From assembly GCA_946887105.1 (NCBI GenBank), contig CAMPKJ010000007.1, positions 1-48,413 of the forward strand: a stretch of DNA of 48,413 nt, written 5' to 3'. Below the pieces are notes generated by a model. The model was not told the DNA's origin and did not search any database. It saw nothing but the letters and a program-made list of their open reading frames with translations. The translations under genes were made by a program, and so were the position numbers. Numbering within the stretch: the first letter of the stretch is position 1; the number at the start of each line of letters is the position of its first letter. Of this stretch, positions 28,544-36,362 are shown one piece after another. Source of the stretch: an uncultured Acidobacteriota bacterium (GTDB taxonomy: Bacteria; Acidobacteriota; Thermoanaerobaculia; Gp7-AA8).

Positions 28544-28938
28544 CCACCGCGGTCATGAGCGATCGCGCATTCGTCGAGGCCTTCGAAGCGTGCACGCTGC
28601 CCGCGGAGCTGTTCGATCATCGCGAGCACGTGCGGCTGGCCTGGCTCTATCTGCGCGAACAGCCGCTGCTCGAAGCGCTCCCCCGCTTCATCGCCTCGCT
28701 GCGGCGTTACGCCGGCAGCATCGGCGCGAGCGGCAAGTACCACGAGACCATCACCTACGCGTTCATGTTCCTCATCCACGAGCGCGTGCAACGCGGCGCG
28801 GCGGAGACGTTCGACGCATTCGCAAACGCGAACGCCGACCTCTTCGGACCGATCCTGCAACGCTACTATCGCCCGGAGACGCTCGCGTCGGAGCTGGCGC
28901 GCGCGTCGTTCGTCATGCCCGATCACTTCTTCGTGTAG
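28540..28938 (+). CDS. Uncharacterised conserved-type protein with two His motifs
   Basis: A 132-residue, mostly helical protein with no signal peptide. It has two conspicuous histidine motifs: LFDHREHVRLAWLYLR and SGKYHETITYAFMFLIHE. Spacing of the histidines on separate helices could form a metal or active site, resembling DinB-type helical bundles only in general. I do not recognise the family with certainty. It is translationally coupled to the small DNA-binding-like protein upstream, so the two are expressed together and the pair may be a regulatory module. The last 16 bases overlap the convergent DUF1579-like gene. Confidence 0.72.
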   Translation: MTTAVMSDRAFVEAFEACTLPAELFDHREHVRLAWLYLREQPLLEALPRFIASLRRYAGSIGASGKYHETITYAFMFLIHERVQRGAAETFDAFANANADLFGPILQRYYRPETLASELARASFVMPDHFFV

Positions 28939-29468
28939 ACGTACTCGTCGATCGCCGCCCACGTTCCATCGGCCAGCCGTTCTTCATTCAGCACGCGGTA
29001 CTCGCGCGCCGAGCGTTTCTCGATGGTCTGCCGCAGCGTCACGCGTTCGCCGATGATCTCCGCGTTCTCCGCGATCAACACCAGGCGGTTCCCTTCCCAT
29101 CGCTCGCCGGCCGCCGTGATCGCGTTGCCGCTTTTGTCGATGCCGATCGAGATCCAGCGCTTCGTGGCCACGTTCCAGGTCAGGAATCCAAGATCCTCGG
29201 GCTGGCCGGAGTAGCGATCCTGAAACTGCAGCCACGTGCCGCCGAGAATCGCGGTGACTGTGCCTTCGCCGCGATCGACCTGATCGGGAGCGGAGAAGAC
29301 CCGGGCCGAGACACGCCACTCACCGATGAGCCAGCGCAGGTCTTCCAGCTCGCGGCTCGGACGTCCAAGTGATTGTGCCAGCTCGGGTTGCGCCGCAATC
29401 CGGGTTTCGATGCGCTCGTAGAGAGTGGAGATCGTGACGGCGAACAGGCAGATGGCGAGTGCTTTCAT
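28923..29468 (-). CDS. Secreted DUF1579-like beta-barrel protein
   Basis: A 181-residue exported protein with a short signal peptide (MKALAICLFAVTIS). The body resembles DUF1579-type domains: LRWLIGEWRVSARVF, then GTVTAILGGTWLQFQDRYSG and FLTWNVATKRWISIGID, a series of antiparallel strands that suggests a lipocalin-like barrel. The function is unknown. ATG 29468 is preferred over the GTG at 29474. It is divergent from the BlaI gene, and the BlaI operators lie 41 or more bases upstream of this start, so they could influence both genes. Confidence 0.72.
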   Translation of the reverse strand: MKALAICLFAVTISTLYERIETRIAAQPELAQSLGRPSRELEDLRWLIGEWRVSARVFSAPDQVDRGEGTVTAILGGTWLQFQDRYSGQPEDLGFLTWNVATKRWISIGIDKSGNAITAAGERWEGNRLVLIAENAEIIGERVTLRQTIEKRSAREYRVLNEERLADGTWAAIDEYVYTKK

Positions 29469-29508
29469 GCGCACGAACTACGGCGCTGCCTGTCCATCTG
29501 GATGTTCT

Positions 29509-29548
29509 ACGAAATCTTTCGTTGACGATACGAAACCTTTCGTATAGT
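29509..29548 (+). promoter_or_regulatory. Twin operators and promoter of the blaI-M56 operon
   Basis: Two 14-bp dyads of the form ACGAAA-NN-TTTCGT lie at 29509-29522 and 29530-29543, the second extended to TACGAAACCTTTCGTA (29529-29544). Their centres are 21 bp apart, two helical turns, so two dimers would sit on the same face. TTGACG (29522-29527) and TATAGT (29543-29548) are the likely -35 and -10, both touched by the operators. A further half-site-like CTCGTATC follows at 29551-29558. GGAGG precedes the ATG at 29578. Confidence 0.8.
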
Positions 29549-29577: not shown

Positions 29578-29988
29578 ATGGCTGACAAACCGACACCCAG
29601 ACCGACCGACGCCGAGCTCGCGATTCTGCGCGTGCTCTGGCAGCGCGGTCCCAGCACGGTGCGCGAAGTGCACGACGCGCTGAGCAGCTCGCAGGAAACG
29701 GGCTACACCACCGTTCTCAAGCTTCTGCAGATCATGACCGACAAGGGCCTGGTCGTCCGCGACGAGTCGCAGCGCGCGCACGTCTACTCGTCGAGCGAGA
29801 GCGAACAGCGCACGCAACGGAAATTGATCGGCGACCTCATGGACCGCGCGTTCGGCGGCTCGCCGTCGAAGCTGGTCATGCAGGCGCTGTCGGCCAGCAA
29901 AGCGAGCCCTGACGAACTGAATGCCATCCGCAGGCTGCTCGATCAGCAGATCGACAGTCAGACCGAGCTCGGGAGAGATGCGAAATGA
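29578..29988 (+). CDS. BlaI/MecI/CopY-family repressor
   Basis: A 136-residue protein with an N-terminal winged helix (AELAILRVLWQRGPSTVREVHDAL, then GYTTVLKLLQIMTDKGLVVRDE) and a C-terminal dimerisation region with helices RKLIGDLMDRAFGG and DELNAIRRLLDQQID. In the known bla and mec systems this repressor is destroyed when the M56 partner is triggered. Two dyads in its own promoter are the likely binding sites. The gene overlaps the M56 gene by four bases (ATGA). No beta-lactamase is nearby, so the signal may not be an antibiotic. Confidence 0.93.
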   Translation: MADKPTPRPTDAELAILRVLWQRGPSTVREVHDALSSSQETGYTTVLKLLQIMTDKGLVVRDESQRAHVYSSSESEQRTQRKLIGDLMDRAFGGSPSKLVMQALSASKASPDELNAIRRLLDQQIDSQTELGRDAK

Positions 29989-32102
29989 ATGCGATGCAGA
30001 TGTTGACGGGATCCATTGCCCAGGCCATCGGCTGGGCGCTGCTGCACCTGCTGTGGCAGGCCACCATCGTCGCCGGAATCCTCGCCGCCGTGCTTGCGCT
30101 GCTGCCGCGCCGCAATGCGAATGCGCGTTACGCCGCCGCATGCGGCGCGCTCGCGCTCGTGTTCGGCATGTTCGTGGCGACGGCCATCCGCGCCTACGAT
30201 CCCGCGGCCGCGCCGATCGCAACGTCGACGCTCGCCGCTGACGTCGATGAGACCATCGCCGTCCCGCTCTCGAAGATCCCCAGCGTCATCGTCGCCACCG
30301 CCACTGAAGGGTGGCGTGACCGCGCGATGGACGCCGTCACGCGCGCGCGCCAGTCGCTGCCCTCGGTGGTGGCGATCTGGTTTCTCGGCGTGGTCCTTCT
30401 CTCTTCCCGTCTTCTGGTCAGCTTCCTGCGCGTGCGCTCGCTGGCCACGCGCGGCGTGCGGGAGGCGAGCATCGAATGGCAGCGCGTCGCCGCGCGCATC
30501 TCCGAACGTCTCGGCCTGCGCCGCGCGGTGCAGCTCCTCGAGTCGGCGGCGGTCGAAGTGCCGTCCGTACTCGGCTCGCTGCGTCCGGTGATCCTGCTCC
30601 CCGCCAGCACGCTCACCGGCATGACGCCGGAGCAGATCGAGATGGTGCTCGCGCACGAGCTCGCGCACATCCGCCGCCACGATTTCGCGATCAATCTCCT
30701 GCAGGCATTCGTCGAGACGCTGATGTTCTATCACCCGGCGGTCTGGTGGATGTCGAGCCGCGTGCGCATCGAGCGCGAGAACTGCTGCGACGATCTCGCC
30801 GTTGCGGTGTGCGGCAATCCGATCCAGTACGCCCGCGCGCTGACGCGCCTCGAAGAGCTCCGCGCCGGCGCGACGTTGGTCGTGGCCGCGAACGGCGGCT
30901 CGCTGCTCGACCGCATCCGCCGCATCGCCGGCGGGCGTGCCGAGTCGACCGGCCTCAGCTCGCGCTGGGCCGCCGCCGTGGCCATGCTCTCGATTCTGGC
31001 CATCGCGCTGGCTGTGCCCTCGATGCCCGCGCTCGCGCAGCGCGAGAACAAAACCGACGCGCCGCAGGCCGCGAACGCGAACGTCGAGGTCGTCGAAGCA
31101 GCGGAAGACGACGAAGACGCCAGCGACGCCGGCGAAGACTTCGACATGGACTTGCCGGTGGACATCGATATCGACGTCGATGTTCCGGACGTCGACGTCG
31201 ACGTTCCCGAAGTTCCGGATGTCGACATCGACATCGACGACATTCCCGCCATCGCACCGATGCCGCCGATGCCCCCGAGGGCGGTGTTGACGCCGCACCC
31301 GGTGATGCCTGCGCCTCTCGCACCGATGGCGGTTCCGTCGCCGATGCCGAGGCCTGCCATCGCGCCGCATCCGCCGCTCGCCCCGATGGCGGCGATGGAT
31401 TTCGATTTTGATTTCGATGACGAACACGACAGCGATAACGATGACGATGCCGATGACGGCCAGCCCGATCGCAAGCTCGCGGGCGGCGGAAAGCTGACCG
31501 TCGACGAACTGATCTCGCTGCGCGCGGTCGGCGTCACGCCCGGCTACATCAACACCATGCGCGGCCACTTCCCCGACCTCACCGTGCGCCAGGTGACCAG
31601 CCTCAAGGCGGTCGGCGTCACGCCCGAGTTCATCAGCGAAATGCGCTCGGCCGGATTGCAGGTGACCACCGCCCGCGCCGCGACGAGCCTGTCCGCGGTC
31701 GGCGTCACGCCGGCCTTCATCCGCGAGATGCGCAGCGCCGGAATGGACGTGAAGACGGAGCGCGACGCCACCAGTCTCAAGGCCGTTGGCGTCACACCCG
31801 AGTTCATCCGCGACATGCGCAGCGCCGGCTTCGACGTGAAGACGGAGCGCGATGCCACCAGCCTCAAGGCGGTCGGCGTCACGCCCGAGTACCTCCGCGA
31901 CATGCGTGCCGCGGGCGTGGAGATCAAGACCGCGCGTGATGCCACCAGCCTGCGCGCCGTCGGCGTGACCCCGAAGTTCGTGAAGAAGCTCTCCGATGCC
32001 GGCTACAAGAACCTCTCCCCGCGCGAGCTTTCCCGTCTCGCGGCCGCGGGAATCGACGACGACTTCATTCGCGAGATGGAGCAGTACCGCGAGAAGAAGT
32101 GA
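29985..32102 (+). CDS. BlaR1-like M56 membrane metallopeptidase with extracytoplasmic repeats
   Basis: A 705-residue membrane protein. Membrane helices lie at about 10-38, 45-67, 118-143 and 327-350. The M56 zinc site is HELAHIRRHD from residue 224, with the downstream motif RIERENCCDDLAV typical of the family. After the last helix comes an Asp/Pro-rich segment (about 365-480, with runs such as DIDIDVDVPDVDVDVPEV). From about 503 seven repeats of 29 residues follow (consensus ATSLKAVGVTPEFIREMRSAG). BlaR1 has a penicillin-binding sensor at this place; here it is replaced by the repeats. The protein probably cleaves the adjacent BlaI when the exterior senses its signal. Confidence 0.93.
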   Translation: MNAMQMLTGSIAQAIGWALLHLLWQATIVAGILAAVLALLPRRNANARYAAACGALALVFGMFVATAIRAYDPAAAPIATSTLAADVDETIAVPLSKIPSVIVATATEGWRDRAMDAVTRARQSLPSVVAIWFLGVVLLSSRLLVSFLRVRSLATRGVREASIEWQRVAARISERLGLRRAVQLLESAAVEVPSVLGSLRPVILLPASTLTGMTPEQIEMVLAHELAHIRRHDFAINLLQAFVETLMFYHPAVWWMSSRVRIERENCCDDLAVAVCGNPIQYARALTRLEELRAGATLVVAANGGSLLDRIRRIAGGRAESTGLSSRWAAAVAMLSILAIALAVPSMPALAQRENKTDAPQAANANVEVVEAAEDDEDASDAGEDFDMDLPVDIDIDVDVPDVDVDVPEVPDVDIDIDDIPAIAPMPPMPPRAVLTPHPVMPAPLAPMAVPSPMPRPAIAPHPPLAPMAAMDFDFDFDDEHDSDNDDDADDGQPDRKLAGGGKLTVDELISLRAVGVTPGYINTMRGHFPDLTVRQVTSLKAVGVTPEFISEMRSAGLQVTTARAATSLSAVGVTPAFIREMRSAGMDVKTERDATSLKAVGVTPEFIRDMRSAGFDVKTERDATSLKAVGVTPEYLRDMRAAGVEIKTARDATSLRAVGVTPKFVKKLSDAGYKNLSPRELSRLAAAGIDDDFIREMEQYREKK
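31497..32090 (+). repeat. In-frame 87-base repeats in the M56 gene
   Basis: About seven units of 28-29 codons encode the repeat with core VGVTPEFIREMRSAG. The central units are close at DNA level too: GACGTGAAGACGGAGCGCGA occurs at 31746 and again exactly 87 bases later at 31833. This points to recent unit duplication, and the copy number may vary between strains. Confidence 0.85.
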
Positions 32103-32128
32103 TCTGAACTGATTTCGGAGGAACGACC

Positions 32129-33112
32129 ATGAAGCGCATCCTGACGCTCACGCTCGCAGTGTGTCTGCTCGCCACGGCCGCCTATGCCGACATCGACGGC
32201 GCGTGGACGGCCTCGACCGAAACGAAGCGGCCCGACCGCATCTACATGAACATGACCCAGGGCCGCCATCACAACATGGGCACGACCATGCGCATCAGCG
32301 ACTTCACGGCGCTGACGCGGGCGCAGATGGACGCGGCCACCATGACTCCGGTGCGATTCGAGCTGCGCCGCGAGGCGGGGAACACGGTCTTCGAAGGGAC
32401 ATTCCGCAACGGCAAGGGCGCGGGACAGTTCACGTTCACCGGCAACCGCAACTACATCAGTGCCGTTCAGGCACTGGGCGTGCCGTTCGACCTGGACGGC
32501 AAGAGGAAGCATCGCGACCGCAGCGAGGAAGAGGAGCTGTTCTCGCTCGCGCTGCACGATGTCTCGACCGCGTTCATCAAGCAGATGCAGGCCGAGGGGT
32601 TCAAGGTGTCGCTGGAGAAATACCTGACCATGCGCATCTTCGACATCACCCCGGAGTACATCCGCGAGATGCGCTCCCTCGGATTCAAGGACCTCGATGA
32701 CGAAGAGCTGGTCTCCTCCAAGATCCACAAAGTCACGCCGCAGTACGTGCGCGAGATGCGCGCGGCGGGTTGGGACCTCACACTCGACGAGCTCCAGTCG
32801 AGCGCGATTCACGGCGCCACGCCGGCCTTCGCCGCGGAGATGAAGAAGCTCGGCTACGCGCTCGACTTCGACGATCTCGTTTCGTTCCGCATCCACAAGG
32901 TCACGCCGGAGTTCATCGGCGAGCTGCGCGAGCTCGGCTACACCCGCGTCAGCGCCGACGACCTCGTGTCGATGCGCATCCACAAAGTCACGCCCGAGTT
33001 CATCCGCGAGCTCAAAGCGGCCGGCTACAGCAACGTGCCGGTCGAGAAGCTCGTGTCGATGCGCATTCACAAGATCGACGTGGAGTATCTGAAGCGGATG
33101 GGGGACTCGTAG
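32129..33112 (+). CDS. Secreted protein with repeats like those of the M56 peptidase
   Basis: A 327-residue exported protein with a signal peptide (LTLAVCLLATAAYA). A beta-rich domain of about 100 residues (IDGAWTAST to FTFTGNRNYI) is followed by seven repeats of 28-29 residues, core RIHKVTPEFIRELKAAGY. The repeats share the -VTPE(F/Y)I-x-E(M/L)-x-x-x-G- pattern and period of the neighbouring M56 exterior. The ending LVSMRIHKIDVEYLKRMGDS is a last partial unit. A GGAGG site precedes the start, 26 bases after the M56 gene. It is a likely partner or ligand of the M56 sensor, by inference from shared repeats and operon position. Confidence 0.85.
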   Translation: MKRILTLTLAVCLLATAAYADIDGAWTASTETKRPDRIYMNMTQGRHHNMGTTMRISDFTALTRAQMDAATMTPVRFELRREAGNTVFEGTFRNGKGAGQFTFTGNRNYISAVQALGVPFDLDGKRKHRDRSEEEELFSLALHDVSTAFIKQMQAEGFKVSLEKYLTMRIFDITPEYIREMRSLGFKDLDDEELVSSKIHKVTPQYVREMRAAGWDLTLDELQSSAIHGATPAFAAEMKKLGYALDFDDLVSFRIHKVTPEFIGELRELGYTRVSADDLVSMRIHKVTPEFIRELKAAGYSNVPVEKLVSMRIHKIDVEYLKRMGDS

Positions 33113-33215: not shown

Positions 33216-36200
33216 TCACTTCGCCACGACGCTTCCCACGTACCGGATCGCTCCCCCGCCCTGCGTCAGACGGAACGGGTGAATCTCGAGCTGCTCGTCT
33301 TCGCGCAGCACCACCACGATGCCGCGGCTGATGCCCATCGGACCTGCCGAGAAGTAGCGCACGCCGATGTGGTACGTGCCGCGATCGAGCTCGCCGGCGC
33401 GGACCACTTCCGGCCCGAGACCCTGCGTGATGTCCTCGTAGAGCGAGAGCCCGCGCTGGGTCGCTTTGTGCGAGTAGTAGCACTCTTCGCCGAACGGATC
33501 GACGACGTGCAGATCGACGTCGTTCGCATCCGTCTCCCACGCCAGGGTGATGCGCAGCGCGTCGCGGCGGTCGAGATCGACACCGTATTCACGCGCGCGG
33601 TTGGCGATCTCGGTCCGCTGCGACGGATCCTTGCGCATCCAGGCGCGATATACGCTTCCCAGCTCTTCGCGGATCACGCGCTGCACGCTGCCGTACCATC
33701 CCGGGAACGTCTGCCGCGTCGCGGATTCCAGCACGCGCGCCGCTTCCTCGACGCGTCCTTCCTGCCAGAGCATCAGCGCGAGATGGCGATACCCGTTCGC
33801 GCGATCGGGACGCACCTCCAGCGCCTTGCGCAACGGCGCCTCGGCCAGACGCGCGCTGCGCGTGCGCAGCAGCAGGAGTCCGGCGCGCTGCAGCAGCTCG
33901 GTCTTGGCCGGCGCGATCTCGATCAGCGACGCGAACGCGCGCGCCGCCTCGCTGTCGTGGCCCAATTCGTCCGCGGCCATGCCGAGCACTTCGTAGACCT
34001 GCGGATTCTCCGGATCGTACGGCTGCCAGCGCAGCGCGAGCTCGCGCAACGCGGTCCACTGGTCGTGTGCGGCCAGGGTCTCGCTGAGCTGGTTGTACAG
34101 CTCGCGATCGCGCGGATTGGCGTCGAGCTGCTTTTCGAGCTCGGCGATGCGCGAACGCGACGGCTTCTGTTGCTCCGTCCACGGATTGCGCGGAGCTGCA
34201 CTCTGCACGGGCCGCGCTGCGGGCGCGGCTTGTGGCGGGGGCGCGATGCGCGCCGGTTCGTCCGCACTTTCGAGCCGCGCGCTGACGCCGCGCCCGAGAG
34301 CCGCGGGCGGCGCCGGGACTTCCGGAACGCCACCCACCACGCCACCGACCACCCCACCGGGCACGCCTCCGGCGACTCCACCGGCAACGCCTTCGACCAC
34401 GCCGCCCTGCACGCCCTCCTCGAGCCCCATGGCGTCACGTTCGGCCGGCGGCGCCGCGAGCCCACTCTCGGCCTGAGCCACCGCGTTTTCGACCGCGCTC
34501 ACACGCGCGCGCGCAGCAGTGTCCGCGGCCAACTTCTGGCGCACCGGAGGTGGCGTCGTGAATGCGATCTGCGGGCGATCGAGCCGCCCGATCCCGCCCG
34601 CGTCAATGGTCAGAATCTGCGCGAGCGCGCGGCGGTCGAGTCCGAAGCGCTGGTAATCCCATTCGCTTTCGAGCACCAGCATGGTCGTGCGCGGAATGAC
34701 CACGCGCTGCTCGATGCTGATCTTCACCTGCTCGGCCGCGATCGCGCGGCGCAGCGCCTCGGACGGCTCGGACGCTTCGCGCTCGGCGAGGTATTCGAGA
34801 TAGGCGCGGTACGCCTCGCGCTCGAGCAGCGGCGCGAACGTCGAGGCGCTGAGGCGCTTCGCATTCGCGGCGACGATGCGCGGCTCCTGCCCCGCTTTCA
34901 CCTTGCCGAGGACGAGCACCTCGTCGCCGGGCGCGACATCGTCGAAGTGCGTGGGATAGATCCACTCCGCGCCGGCGTCGGTGACATCGACCGAGCCGCC
35001 GAGGGGACGGTGCAACTCCTCGGCCGCGGCAGCGGCGCGCGTCGGCAGAGCGTCGTTGAACGGCACGCGCACGACGCGGCCGTGTTTCGCGGTCAGTGCC
35101 TTCGCGATGGCGGCATCTTCGCGGCTGCCGAGGATGAGCGCGTGAATGCGGGCGTTGGCGGGAAGATTGGCCATCGCGTTCTGCAGATCGTGCGCGGCGG
35201 TCGTGCCGAGCGTGGCCACGAGATCGCTGGCGATGACGGCGGTGCGCGATGGATCTTTCTGCGTGCGCGCGGTCAGATCGCGCAGCACCGCGCCGAGATC
35301 CGTGCCGCCGAGGAACAGACGCTTGCTCAGGAGCGACTCGATGGAACGCGACAGCTCCGATGCGCTGCCGCGTGCGAGCGGCACGACCTCATTGTCGAAC
35401 GCGACCAGCTCGACGTCATCGGAAGCCGGAAGCGCGCCGAGCAGCTGCTCCAGCGCGCGGATGCGATGCGGCGCGCCTTCCGCGGACGACGCGGACGTAT
35501 CGACGTAGAACAGCCAGCGATTGCTCTTCTCCTGGCGCGCGACCGCCACATTCGGACGCAACGCAGCGAGATAGAAATCGCCGGCGCGCAGCAACATCGG
35601 ACCGGCCGACTCGCCGCGCGAGGTCAGCACGATGTCGCGATCGGGCGTCCAGTCCTGCTGGTCGAAGCTCGTCACCTCGGCGGTACTGGTGGTCAGCTGG
35701 CCCGACGTCGACTCGCCGGGAATCGGAGTGACGAACGCCCGGAACGTCAACTTGTTGACCTTCGACATCCCGCGCAGCGGCAGCGTGTACGTGCGCACGC
35801 CGTCGCGCAACGGCAGCAGCGTCGTGTACGACAGCACCAGGCGCACCGGTGCGTTCGCCTCGATCGGGAAAATGCGCGCCGAGAAGCGATTGCCCTGGTC
35901 CTGCTCGAGCAGCGCCGGATCGCGCATCTGATGCAGGAACTGCTCGTACACCTGATTCGCGCGCAGCCGCTCCACGACTTCGCCTTCCATCAGATGCCCG
36001 TTCACTTCCTTCGCGAAACGGCTGATGGCGGCGTTCGGCGGGAGCGTGCAGGAGAAGCGTCCCTCGATGCGCCGCGCCTGCGGATTGCGGAAGCGCAGCT
36101 CCAACTCCGTCAGCGACAGCATCCCGTGGATGGCGGTGCGGACGGAGAGGTCTTCGAGGATCAGCTCCTGCCCATCGGGATCGGCAAACGCGATCGGCGC

Positions 36201-36362
36201 GGGCGGCGCTGTCGTTGCGGCGGTTCGCTTCGCGGGCGGCTCCGCCGGCGCGAGCGTGAACGCGCGCGGCTTCTCCTGCGGAGCCGCGGCCAGGAACAGA
36301 CCGATGACGATGGCGAACGTCAGGGCGGCGGTGAGCGAGAGCGAGCGTGCCAGTGACTGCAT
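33216..36362 (-). CDS. Exported VIT/VWA/TPR/DUF2135 protein
   Basis: A 1048-residue protein with a signal-like N-terminal helix (LTAALTFAIVIGLFLAAAP). A VIT domain follows at about 66-190 (for example SVRTAIHGMLSLTELELRFRN and RDPALLEQDQGNRFSARIFP), then a VWA domain from about 280 whose MIDAS is D-x-S-x-S in FYVDTSASS and T in LGGTDLG. Near 640-680 is a flexible linker of repeated G-G-V units (GGVAGGVPGGVVGGVVGG). TPR-type helices follow (ERELYN-like to VRPDRANGYRHLAL), then a DUF2135-like domain (LAWETDANDVDLHVVDPFGE). Such proteins bind partners through VWA/TPR; the partner is unknown. It is convergent with the M56 operon and divergent from the giant gene. Confidence 0.88.
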   Translation of the reverse strand: MQSLARSLSLTAALTFAIVIGLFLAAAPQEKPRAFTLAPAEPPAKRTAATTAPPAPIAFADPDGQELILEDLSVRTAIHGMLSLTELELRFRNPQARRIEGRFSCTLPPNAAISRFAKEVNGHLMEGEVVERLRANQVYEQFLHQMRDPALLEQDQGNRFSARIFPIEANAPVRLVLSYTTLLPLRDGVRTYTLPLRGMSKVNKLTFRAFVTPIPGESTSGQLTTSTAEVTSFDQQDWTPDRDIVLTSRGESAGPMLLRAGDFYLAALRPNVAVARQEKSNRWLFYVDTSASSAEGAPHRIRALEQLLGALPASDDVELVAFDNEVVPLARGSASELSRSIESLLSKRLFLGGTDLGAVLRDLTARTQKDPSRTAVIASDLVATLGTTAAHDLQNAMANLPANARIHALILGSREDAAIAKALTAKHGRVVRVPFNDALPTRAAAAAEELHRPLGGSVDVTDAGAEWIYPTHFDDVAPGDEVLVLGKVKAGQEPRIVAANAKRLSASTFAPLLEREAYRAYLEYLAEREASEPSEALRRAIAAEQVKISIEQRVVIPRTTMLVLESEWDYQRFGLDRRALAQILTIDAGGIGRLDRPQIAFTTPPPVRQKLAADTAARARVSAVENAVAQAESGLAAPPAERDAMGLEEGVQGGVVEGVAGGVAGGVPGGVVGGVVGGVPEVPAPPAALGRGVSARLESADEPARIAPPPQAAPAARPVQSAAPRNPWTEQQKPSRSRIAELEKQLDANPRDRELYNQLSETLAAHDQWTALRELALRWQPYDPENPQVYEVLGMAADELGHDSEAARAFASLIEIAPAKTELLQRAGLLLLRTRSARLAEAPLRKALEVRPDRANGYRHLALMLWQEGRVEEAARVLESATRQTFPGWYGSVQRVIREELGSVYRAWMRKDPSQRTEIANRAREYGVDLDRRDALRITLAWETDANDVDLHVVDPFGEECYYSHKATQRGLSLYEDITQGLGPEVVRAGELDRGTYHIGVRYFSAGPMGISRGIVVVLREDEQLEIHPFRLTQGGGAIRYVGSVVAK

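Follow-up and report, generated by a model that had tools for sequence, protein, structure and literature searches.

A BlaI/M56-type switch with related repeat modules in its membrane protease and an exported partner protein in an uncultured Acidobacteriota bacterium

A stretch of 48,413 nucleotides from an uncultured Acidobacteriota bacterium (contig CAMPKJ010000007.1; the whole stretch is referred to below as the window) harbours a row of three genes encoding a BlaI repressor, an M56 membrane metalloprotease and an exported protein. We regard this system as a variant of the BlaI/M56 switch, whose partner is conserved and whose candidate regulon has been mapped in part. Both the M56 protein and the exported protein end in a seven-unit repeat region, and the two regions are homologous. 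By analogy with the bla system, the sensor and the exported product might share a ligand-binding module, and this is the explanation that we tentatively favour.

The operon and its two repeat proteins

The blaI gene (29578..29988, 136 aa), the M56 gene (29985..32102, 705 aa) and the exported-protein gene (32129..33112, 327 aa) are all on the plus strand, as are the features described below unless stated otherwise. The start of the M56 gene lies inside blaI, with an overlap of 4 bp, and the exported-protein gene begins 26 bp past the end of the M56 gene, with GGAGG ahead of its start. Together these latter two reading frames span exactly the positions 29985..33112 given in an earlier note on this DNA. 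The repressor matched PF03965 (1.2e-27) with 97 bits, over the curated cut-off of 22.6.

The repeat regions of the two proteins aligned end to end with a score of 251; the alignment covers 192 residues and is interrupted by two gaps of one residue each. The maximum was 56 in 1000 shuffles (mean 29.5, standard deviation 5.2) and 67 in 1000 column-permuted repeat arrays. In the M56 protein the repeats start at residues 507, 536, 565, 594, 623, 652 and 681, six of them having 29 residues and the last 25. Those of the exported protein start at residues 134, 164, 193, 221, 249, 278 and 307, with lengths of 30, 29, 28, 28, 29, 29 and 21. The seven homologous repeats per protein described in the earlier note were confirmed; its 29-residue period held for the M56 repeats, but the exported repeats run at 28-30. 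AlphaFold2 models of both proteins show seven helical hairpins. A consensus of roughly LVxMRIHGVTPEYIREMKxAGYxxLS was common to 145 M56 units and 152 exported units from 20 paired loci, including the window.

The units differ in their regularity. The window M56 units are more uniform than the exported units and are encoded by 87-bp DNA repeats, which look to have expanded in tandem within the gene. Among 24 aligned exported proteins each repeat had conserved residues of its own, and because of this the exported units do not look interchangeable. Several family matches in these regions were rejected since each spans one or a few repeat units of the exported or exterior region, and they were read as matches to the repetitive helix core: HTH_39 and DUF3744, which passed their cut-offs in the M56 protein, and Decapeptide, DUF3502 (in the exported protein) and IcmE_DotG, which were below theirs.

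The M56 protein matched PF05569 above the Pfam cut-off (2.1e-34, 119.5 bits), and its five best matches in the Protein Data Bank were all BlaR1 chains (E 8.3e-05 to 7.5e-03). The NCBIfam model blaR1_generic covered only residues 127-357, with 89.4 bits, below the cut-off of 400. Neither Pfam nor NCBIfam detected a transpeptidase or penicillin-binding domain, in agreement with the earlier note, which had described this protein as lacking the sensor of BlaR1. Four membrane helices were predicted from hydropathy and the AlphaFold2 model, with the zinc motif HELAH (residues 224-228; 30654..30668) between the third and the fourth. H224, E225, H228 and E265 were invariant across 23 sequences. E265, the likely third ligand, is 41 residues past H224, the spacing given in the available passages on BlaR1 for its zinc ligand Glu242 and His201 (PMC9834060). 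A loose scan for a signal-peptidase site after helix 4 (ALA-Q in the window), of the kind described for BlaR1, matched 21 of the 23 sequences, at varying places. Beyond the membrane region, the protein is predicted to continue as an acidic, proline-rich linker (residues 346-493; 31020..31463) and the seven-hairpin solenoid (residues 507-705; 31503..32099). The mean predicted local distance difference test (pLDDT) score of the model was 75.4; the solenoid blocks were mostly at 90-96, and the linker was almost all below 50 (residues 346-404 and 408-493).

The exported protein was delineated by homologue search, alignment and an AlphaFold2 model (mean pLDDT 91.7). Its N-terminus resembles a signal peptide (about residues 1-20; 32129..32188; from hydropathy and alignment, with a putative cleavage site), followed by a modelled beta domain (about residues 21-118; 32189..32482) and by the solenoid (residues 134-327; 32528..33109). 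No conserved lipobox was seen by eye in 24 aligned relatives. The signal-peptide-like start agrees with the description of this protein as secreted in the earlier note, but in this diderm it is probably periplasmic, and "exported" is the better term. The homologue search returned 872 relatives at E 0.001 or better, and among the 120 of these that were listed, all those with a named organism belonged to Thermoanaerobaculia or Acidobacteriota. Fold searches with the exported protein gave no clear relative.

Genomic context and phylogeny of the pairing

The profile of the exported protein matched 46 of 297 Acidobacteriota genomes, with at most 7 candidates scored per genome. Fifty clusters from this search and 7 from another search made up a set of 57 loci, all found via the exported-protein profile; a scan of genome contigs yielded 10 loci. 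Scoring of the loci relied on profiles built up from the proteins of the window itself. Some M56 genes, sought with the profile of the window's M56 protein, could have been missed in the counts below, and the number of repeat-bearing M56 genes that lack a partner may be too low, the sampling having begun from the exported protein.

Repeat-bearing M56 proteins were present 27 times in the 57 loci, always beside a blaI gene (27/27). For 19 of the 27, a separate gene for a beta-domain and repeat protein followed immediately downstream on the same strand; judged by eye, the two genes either overlap or lie up to about 150 bp apart. Two consecutive copies of the downstream gene were present at L059 and at L078. 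In four others the beta domain and repeats were fused into the M56 chain; two of these belong to the Acidobacteriota sample (L071 and L085), one to a Zixibacteriota record (L112) and one to a Gammaproteobacteria record (L115). The remaining four had neither partner nor fusion, and one of these (L102) ends at a contig edge. In 24 of the 57 loci the exported protein was present and no M56 gene was detected within the DNA retrieved. At L091 the exported-protein gene adjoins an M56 gene without repeats, and five loci were partial or empty. The 50 clusters alone comprised 16 paired loci, 2 fused, 4 with only the repeat-bearing M56 gene, 22 with only the exported protein, 1 beside the repeat-less M56 gene (L091) and 5 that were partial or without a confirmed gene.

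Two long reading frames, L062 (1199 aa) and L114 (782 aa), were considered as new membrane fusions and rejected. Pfam detected nothing in either, and a signal peptide is the most likely reading of the hydrophobic segment that immediately precedes the beta domain; both were therefore counted as M56-less.

These contexts were followed on a tree built from 51 rows of the beta domain, of which 22 were paired, 4 were fused and 25 had no repeat-M56 neighbour. The context labels were clustered on it, with 8 changes compared with 19.8 after shuffling, and none of 200 shuffles was as low. Every one of the six rows in the window's clade, from the window and four other loci, was paired with an M56 gene. 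A clade of 14 rows (support 100/99) consisted of 13 rows without an M56 neighbour together with L091. The fused rows fell in two separate well-supported groups, L085 and L115 near L114, and L071 with L112; given the branches with good support, this label must have changed at least twice, either by being gained on two occasions or by one gain and one loss. In these sequences the pairing depends on clade, because 24 of the 57 loci carry the exported protein with no M56 gene found nearby. The pairing is conserved for most repeat-bearing M56 genes but not for the exported protein at large. The situation that the note had named as contrary to its proposal, a secreted protein usually found without an M56 neighbour, was encountered in those 24 loci and not in the window's clade.

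Within the clade lacking repeat-M56 neighbours, a one-family protein of 420-450 aa adjoins the exported-protein gene at L069, L070, L072, L073, L081, L090, L092, L093 and L100; the one member scanned, that of L070, had tetratricopeptide repeat (TPR) matches. Elsewhere, at L076 and L104, the exported-protein gene stands in an operon-like row with genes for an extracytoplasmic function (ECF) sigma factor and HEAT-repeat proteins. A DUF4097 gene lies beside it at L076 and also at L075, where the contig ends soon after. The beta-repeat module is thus also found beside another envelope-type regulator.

These contexts bear on a possible mutual binding of the two solenoids, as the earlier note had proposed, in which the exported protein would serve as a soluble co-sensor or inhibitor. 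Damage outside would then titrate the exported protein away, the M56 solenoid would change state and the protease would be switched; with the exported-protein gene in the same operon, a feedback loop would result. The conserved adjacency (19/27) speaks for mutual binding, as do the four fusions in two separate supported tree groups, a classical form of linkage evidence. After centring, cognate repeat sets also resembled each other more than permuted sets did (p 0.0002, a value not corrected for descent), although a protein's own partner was its outright best repeat match in only 3 of 20 loci. Against it stand the 24 loci with no M56 gene found near, 13 of which form one clade with L091, and the exported-protein genes in ECF-sigma operons; moreover, a common repeat is no evidence of mutual binding. 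Mutual binding is regarded as the chief competitor of the explanation that we favour, possible if somewhat improbable. A related and more doubtful idea is a two-piece sensor, in which the exterior solenoid would read how much of a soluble solenoid protein from the same regulon is present, or to what extent that protein is occupied. If true, fused and diffusible beta-repeat forms would interchange in evolution, and the switch would count free sensor molecules in the periplasm.

Operators and the candidate regulon

Two palindromes of the pattern TACGAA-N4-TTCGTA lie in tandem over the blaI promoter. Operator 1 (TACGAAATCTTTCGTT, 29508..29523) overlaps the likely -35 box TTGACG (29522-29527), and operator 2 (TACGAAACCTTTCGTA, 29529..29544), an exact match to the pattern, is between the likely -35 and -10 boxes. 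They were the only matches in the window at up to 3 mismatches (chance mean 0.30; two were reached in 5 of 100 shuffles). The tandem pair was conserved ahead of 14 of 30 BlaI genes including that of the window (13/29 others), compared with 79 of 20000 random 180-mers drawn from the same loci, true sites included. Other palindromes were seen by eye at many of the remaining BlaI genes. BlaI would be expected to bind at the tandem palindromes. A gene for a DUF1579 protein (28923-29474, minus strand) is divergent to the operon and starts 33 bp from operator 1; given this arrangement, BlaI could control both directions.

The pattern was then considered at the level of whole genomes. With one mismatch allowed, 2-20 sites per genome were recorded in 14 genomes, compared with 0-12 for backward-pattern controls; the control exceeded the pattern in genome G210 (9 and 7) and equalled it in G074 (2 and 2). 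Because of these control counts, matches with one mismatch are partly chance.

In genome G261, among the rows listed, exact ACGAAN4TTCGTTGAC sites occurred only at the blaI promoter and at a distant M56-less beta-repeat gene (L065), whose promoter has both operators of the pair with one mismatch each. In Sphingosinicella (G007), two BlaI genes carry TGCTACAAAGGTAGCA and CGCTACAAATGTAGCA. A corresponding motif, TGCTAN6TAGCA, was first spotted by eye and searched afterwards, and seven exact sites were found in this genome. One precedes the likely start of the M56-less beta-repeat gene L114 by about 20 bp, and another lies ahead of a blaI gene. Further exact sites are at L224, L226, L229 and L230. 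These results suggest regulon membership for two of the M56-less beta-repeat genes and do not extend it to the family as a whole.

The operator was also present just upstream of DUF5916 genes in G001, G293 and G261, at 5 of the 30 DUF5916 loci that were retrieved across ten genomes (36 matches in total, the six not retrieved being from G034). The counts were 1/3 in G001 (one locus being without upstream sequence), 3/7 in G293, 1/3 in G261 and 0/17 in the other seven genomes; a second DUF5916 gene in G261 had a site with two mismatches. G001 and G261 have two BlaI genes each, and no operator match was found at the second, which ties the DUF5916 sites in these genomes to the repeat-linked BlaI. 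The three paralogues in G293 (L195, L206 and L211) each have a BlaI-type operator about 110 bp or less upstream of the matched region, but with eight BlaI genes in that genome the sites could belong to a paralogue. A further blaI-M56 operon with the same tandem operator is present in G002 (L139:4211-6367); a GWxTD domain is present in the M56 protein of this operon, in which no repeat was detected.

Operator-like sites with one mismatch each precede three genes of the PF00144 (beta-lactamase/S12) family in G288, at the two loci L132 and L133, and operator-like sites also precede genes for an outer-membrane barrel (L134) and a TPR protein (L135). G248 has genes closely homologous to those of L132, L134 and L135, likewise with sites; the loci in these two genomes are not independent, their M56 proteins being 93% identical.

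The exported protein is probably a regulon product of BlaI, because a BlaI-type operator occurs in two unlinked cases, its gene is duplicated in two operons and one clade exists without repeat-M56 neighbours. These data also bear on the view that the solenoid is generic and spread by duplication, the exported-protein gene being an operon passenger and the shared fold having no meaning for the switch. The simple two-helix arrangement, similar to that of TALE/BurrH and designed two-helix solenoids, and the apparent tandem expansion in the M56 gene would fit such a view. It is made unlikely by the operator pair before a distant beta-repeat gene within one genome (G261), by the M56-beta-repeat fusions and by the clustering of context labels on the tree. 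A classical BlaR1-kind beta-lactam or cell-wall sensor with a missed sensor domain is highly improbable, as the PF00144 sites of G288 are outweighed by the lack of any penicillin-binding domain detectable by Pfam or NCBIfam and by an exterior modelled as linker and solenoid.

Beyond the operon, and convergent to it, a minus-strand gene (33216-36362) encodes a protein of 1048 aa that has a VIT domain and TPRs, together with a weak match of von Willebrand type.

Proposed mechanism and relation to known switches

In the explanation that we favour, the locus would be a BlaI/BlaR1-type proteolytic switch in which the sensor has been exchanged for a solenoid. The M56 protease would span the membrane as BlaR1 does, a topology taken from the model and hydropathy, and its exterior would consist of a long flexible linker ending in an alpha-solenoid whose repeats are about 29 residues long. 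In the exported protein a small beta domain would be combined with the same kind of solenoid. Both solenoids would recognise the same envelope ligand, which may be a peptide, a polymer or a misfolded envelope protein; the membrane solenoid would sense it, and the exported solenoid would act on it or buffer it. When the M56 solenoid has ligand bound, the protease in the cytoplasm would become active and BlaI would be cleared from the tandem operators; the levels of protease and exported protein would rise and, in some relatives, those of DUF5916 proteins and further beta-repeat proteins. Both the sharing of a ligand and the direction of signalling are our inference. This bla logic, in which sensor and product have a ligand-binding fold in common (the BlaR1 sensor being built on that of a beta-lactamase), is favoured on the grounds that the exported protein has the features of a product, and the 14-row clade fits a product with a job of its own. 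The earlier note had proposed a ligand, inhibitor or co-sensor for the exported protein; a shared ligand-binding module fits at least as well, considering L065, L114 and the M56-less occurrences.

Several observations weigh against a shared ligand. A BlaI-type operator was found at only 2 of the 25 M56-less beta-repeat genes (L065 and L114), and the TACGAA motif at only one of them (L065). For TGCTAN6TAGCA in G007, the backward control gave 249 sites at up to one mismatch compared with 17 for the motif, so the L114 case depends on position, not enrichment. A histidine at repeat position 8 was present in 77% of exported repeats, in 33-42% of M56 repeats and in none of the window M56 units; because of this difference, the binding surfaces of the two solenoids may differ. 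The beta domain was not found in split M56 proteins, leaving only the solenoid common to sensor and product. In addition, the fusions and the cognate similarity fit direct binding equally well.

Among the papers listed by literature searches, none was recognised as dealing with this repeat pairing. To our knowledge, few BlaI/M56 pairs outside beta-lactam and copper sensing have a known signal. A direct handle on such a signal is offered by a repeat module found in free, tethered and fused forms next to one kind of repressor, and the soluble exported protein could be used to fish for the ligand. Both the exported partner and the candidate targets (DUF5916 genes and, in other genomes, genes of the PF00144 and outer-membrane-barrel kinds) direct attention to the envelope.

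In the BlaR1/MecR1-BlaI/MecI systems of Staphylococcus and Bacillus, an exterior signal activates the cytoplasmic protease of BlaR1, leading to the removal of BlaI, and the operators of BlaI/MecI are of the TACA/TGTA type. The window system resembles them in having a BlaI repressor beside an M56 protease with an HExxH...E site and a C-terminal exterior, and palindromes over the blaI promoter. It differs in its operator half-site, TACGAA, in its neighbour, a beta-domain and repeat protein and not a beta-lactamase, and in its sensor, a helical repeat solenoid in place of the penicillin-binding domain. The BlaR1 sensor is described as related to class D beta-lactamases in passages of PMC9834060. 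A second comparison is with PetR/PetP of cyanobacteria, for which a copper response is reported; the passages on this system mention neither a repeat exterior nor a paired repeat protein (PMC7896320). Like the window system, PetR/PetP joins a BlaI-like regulator to a BlaR1-like protease outside the context of beta-lactams (PMC7896320).

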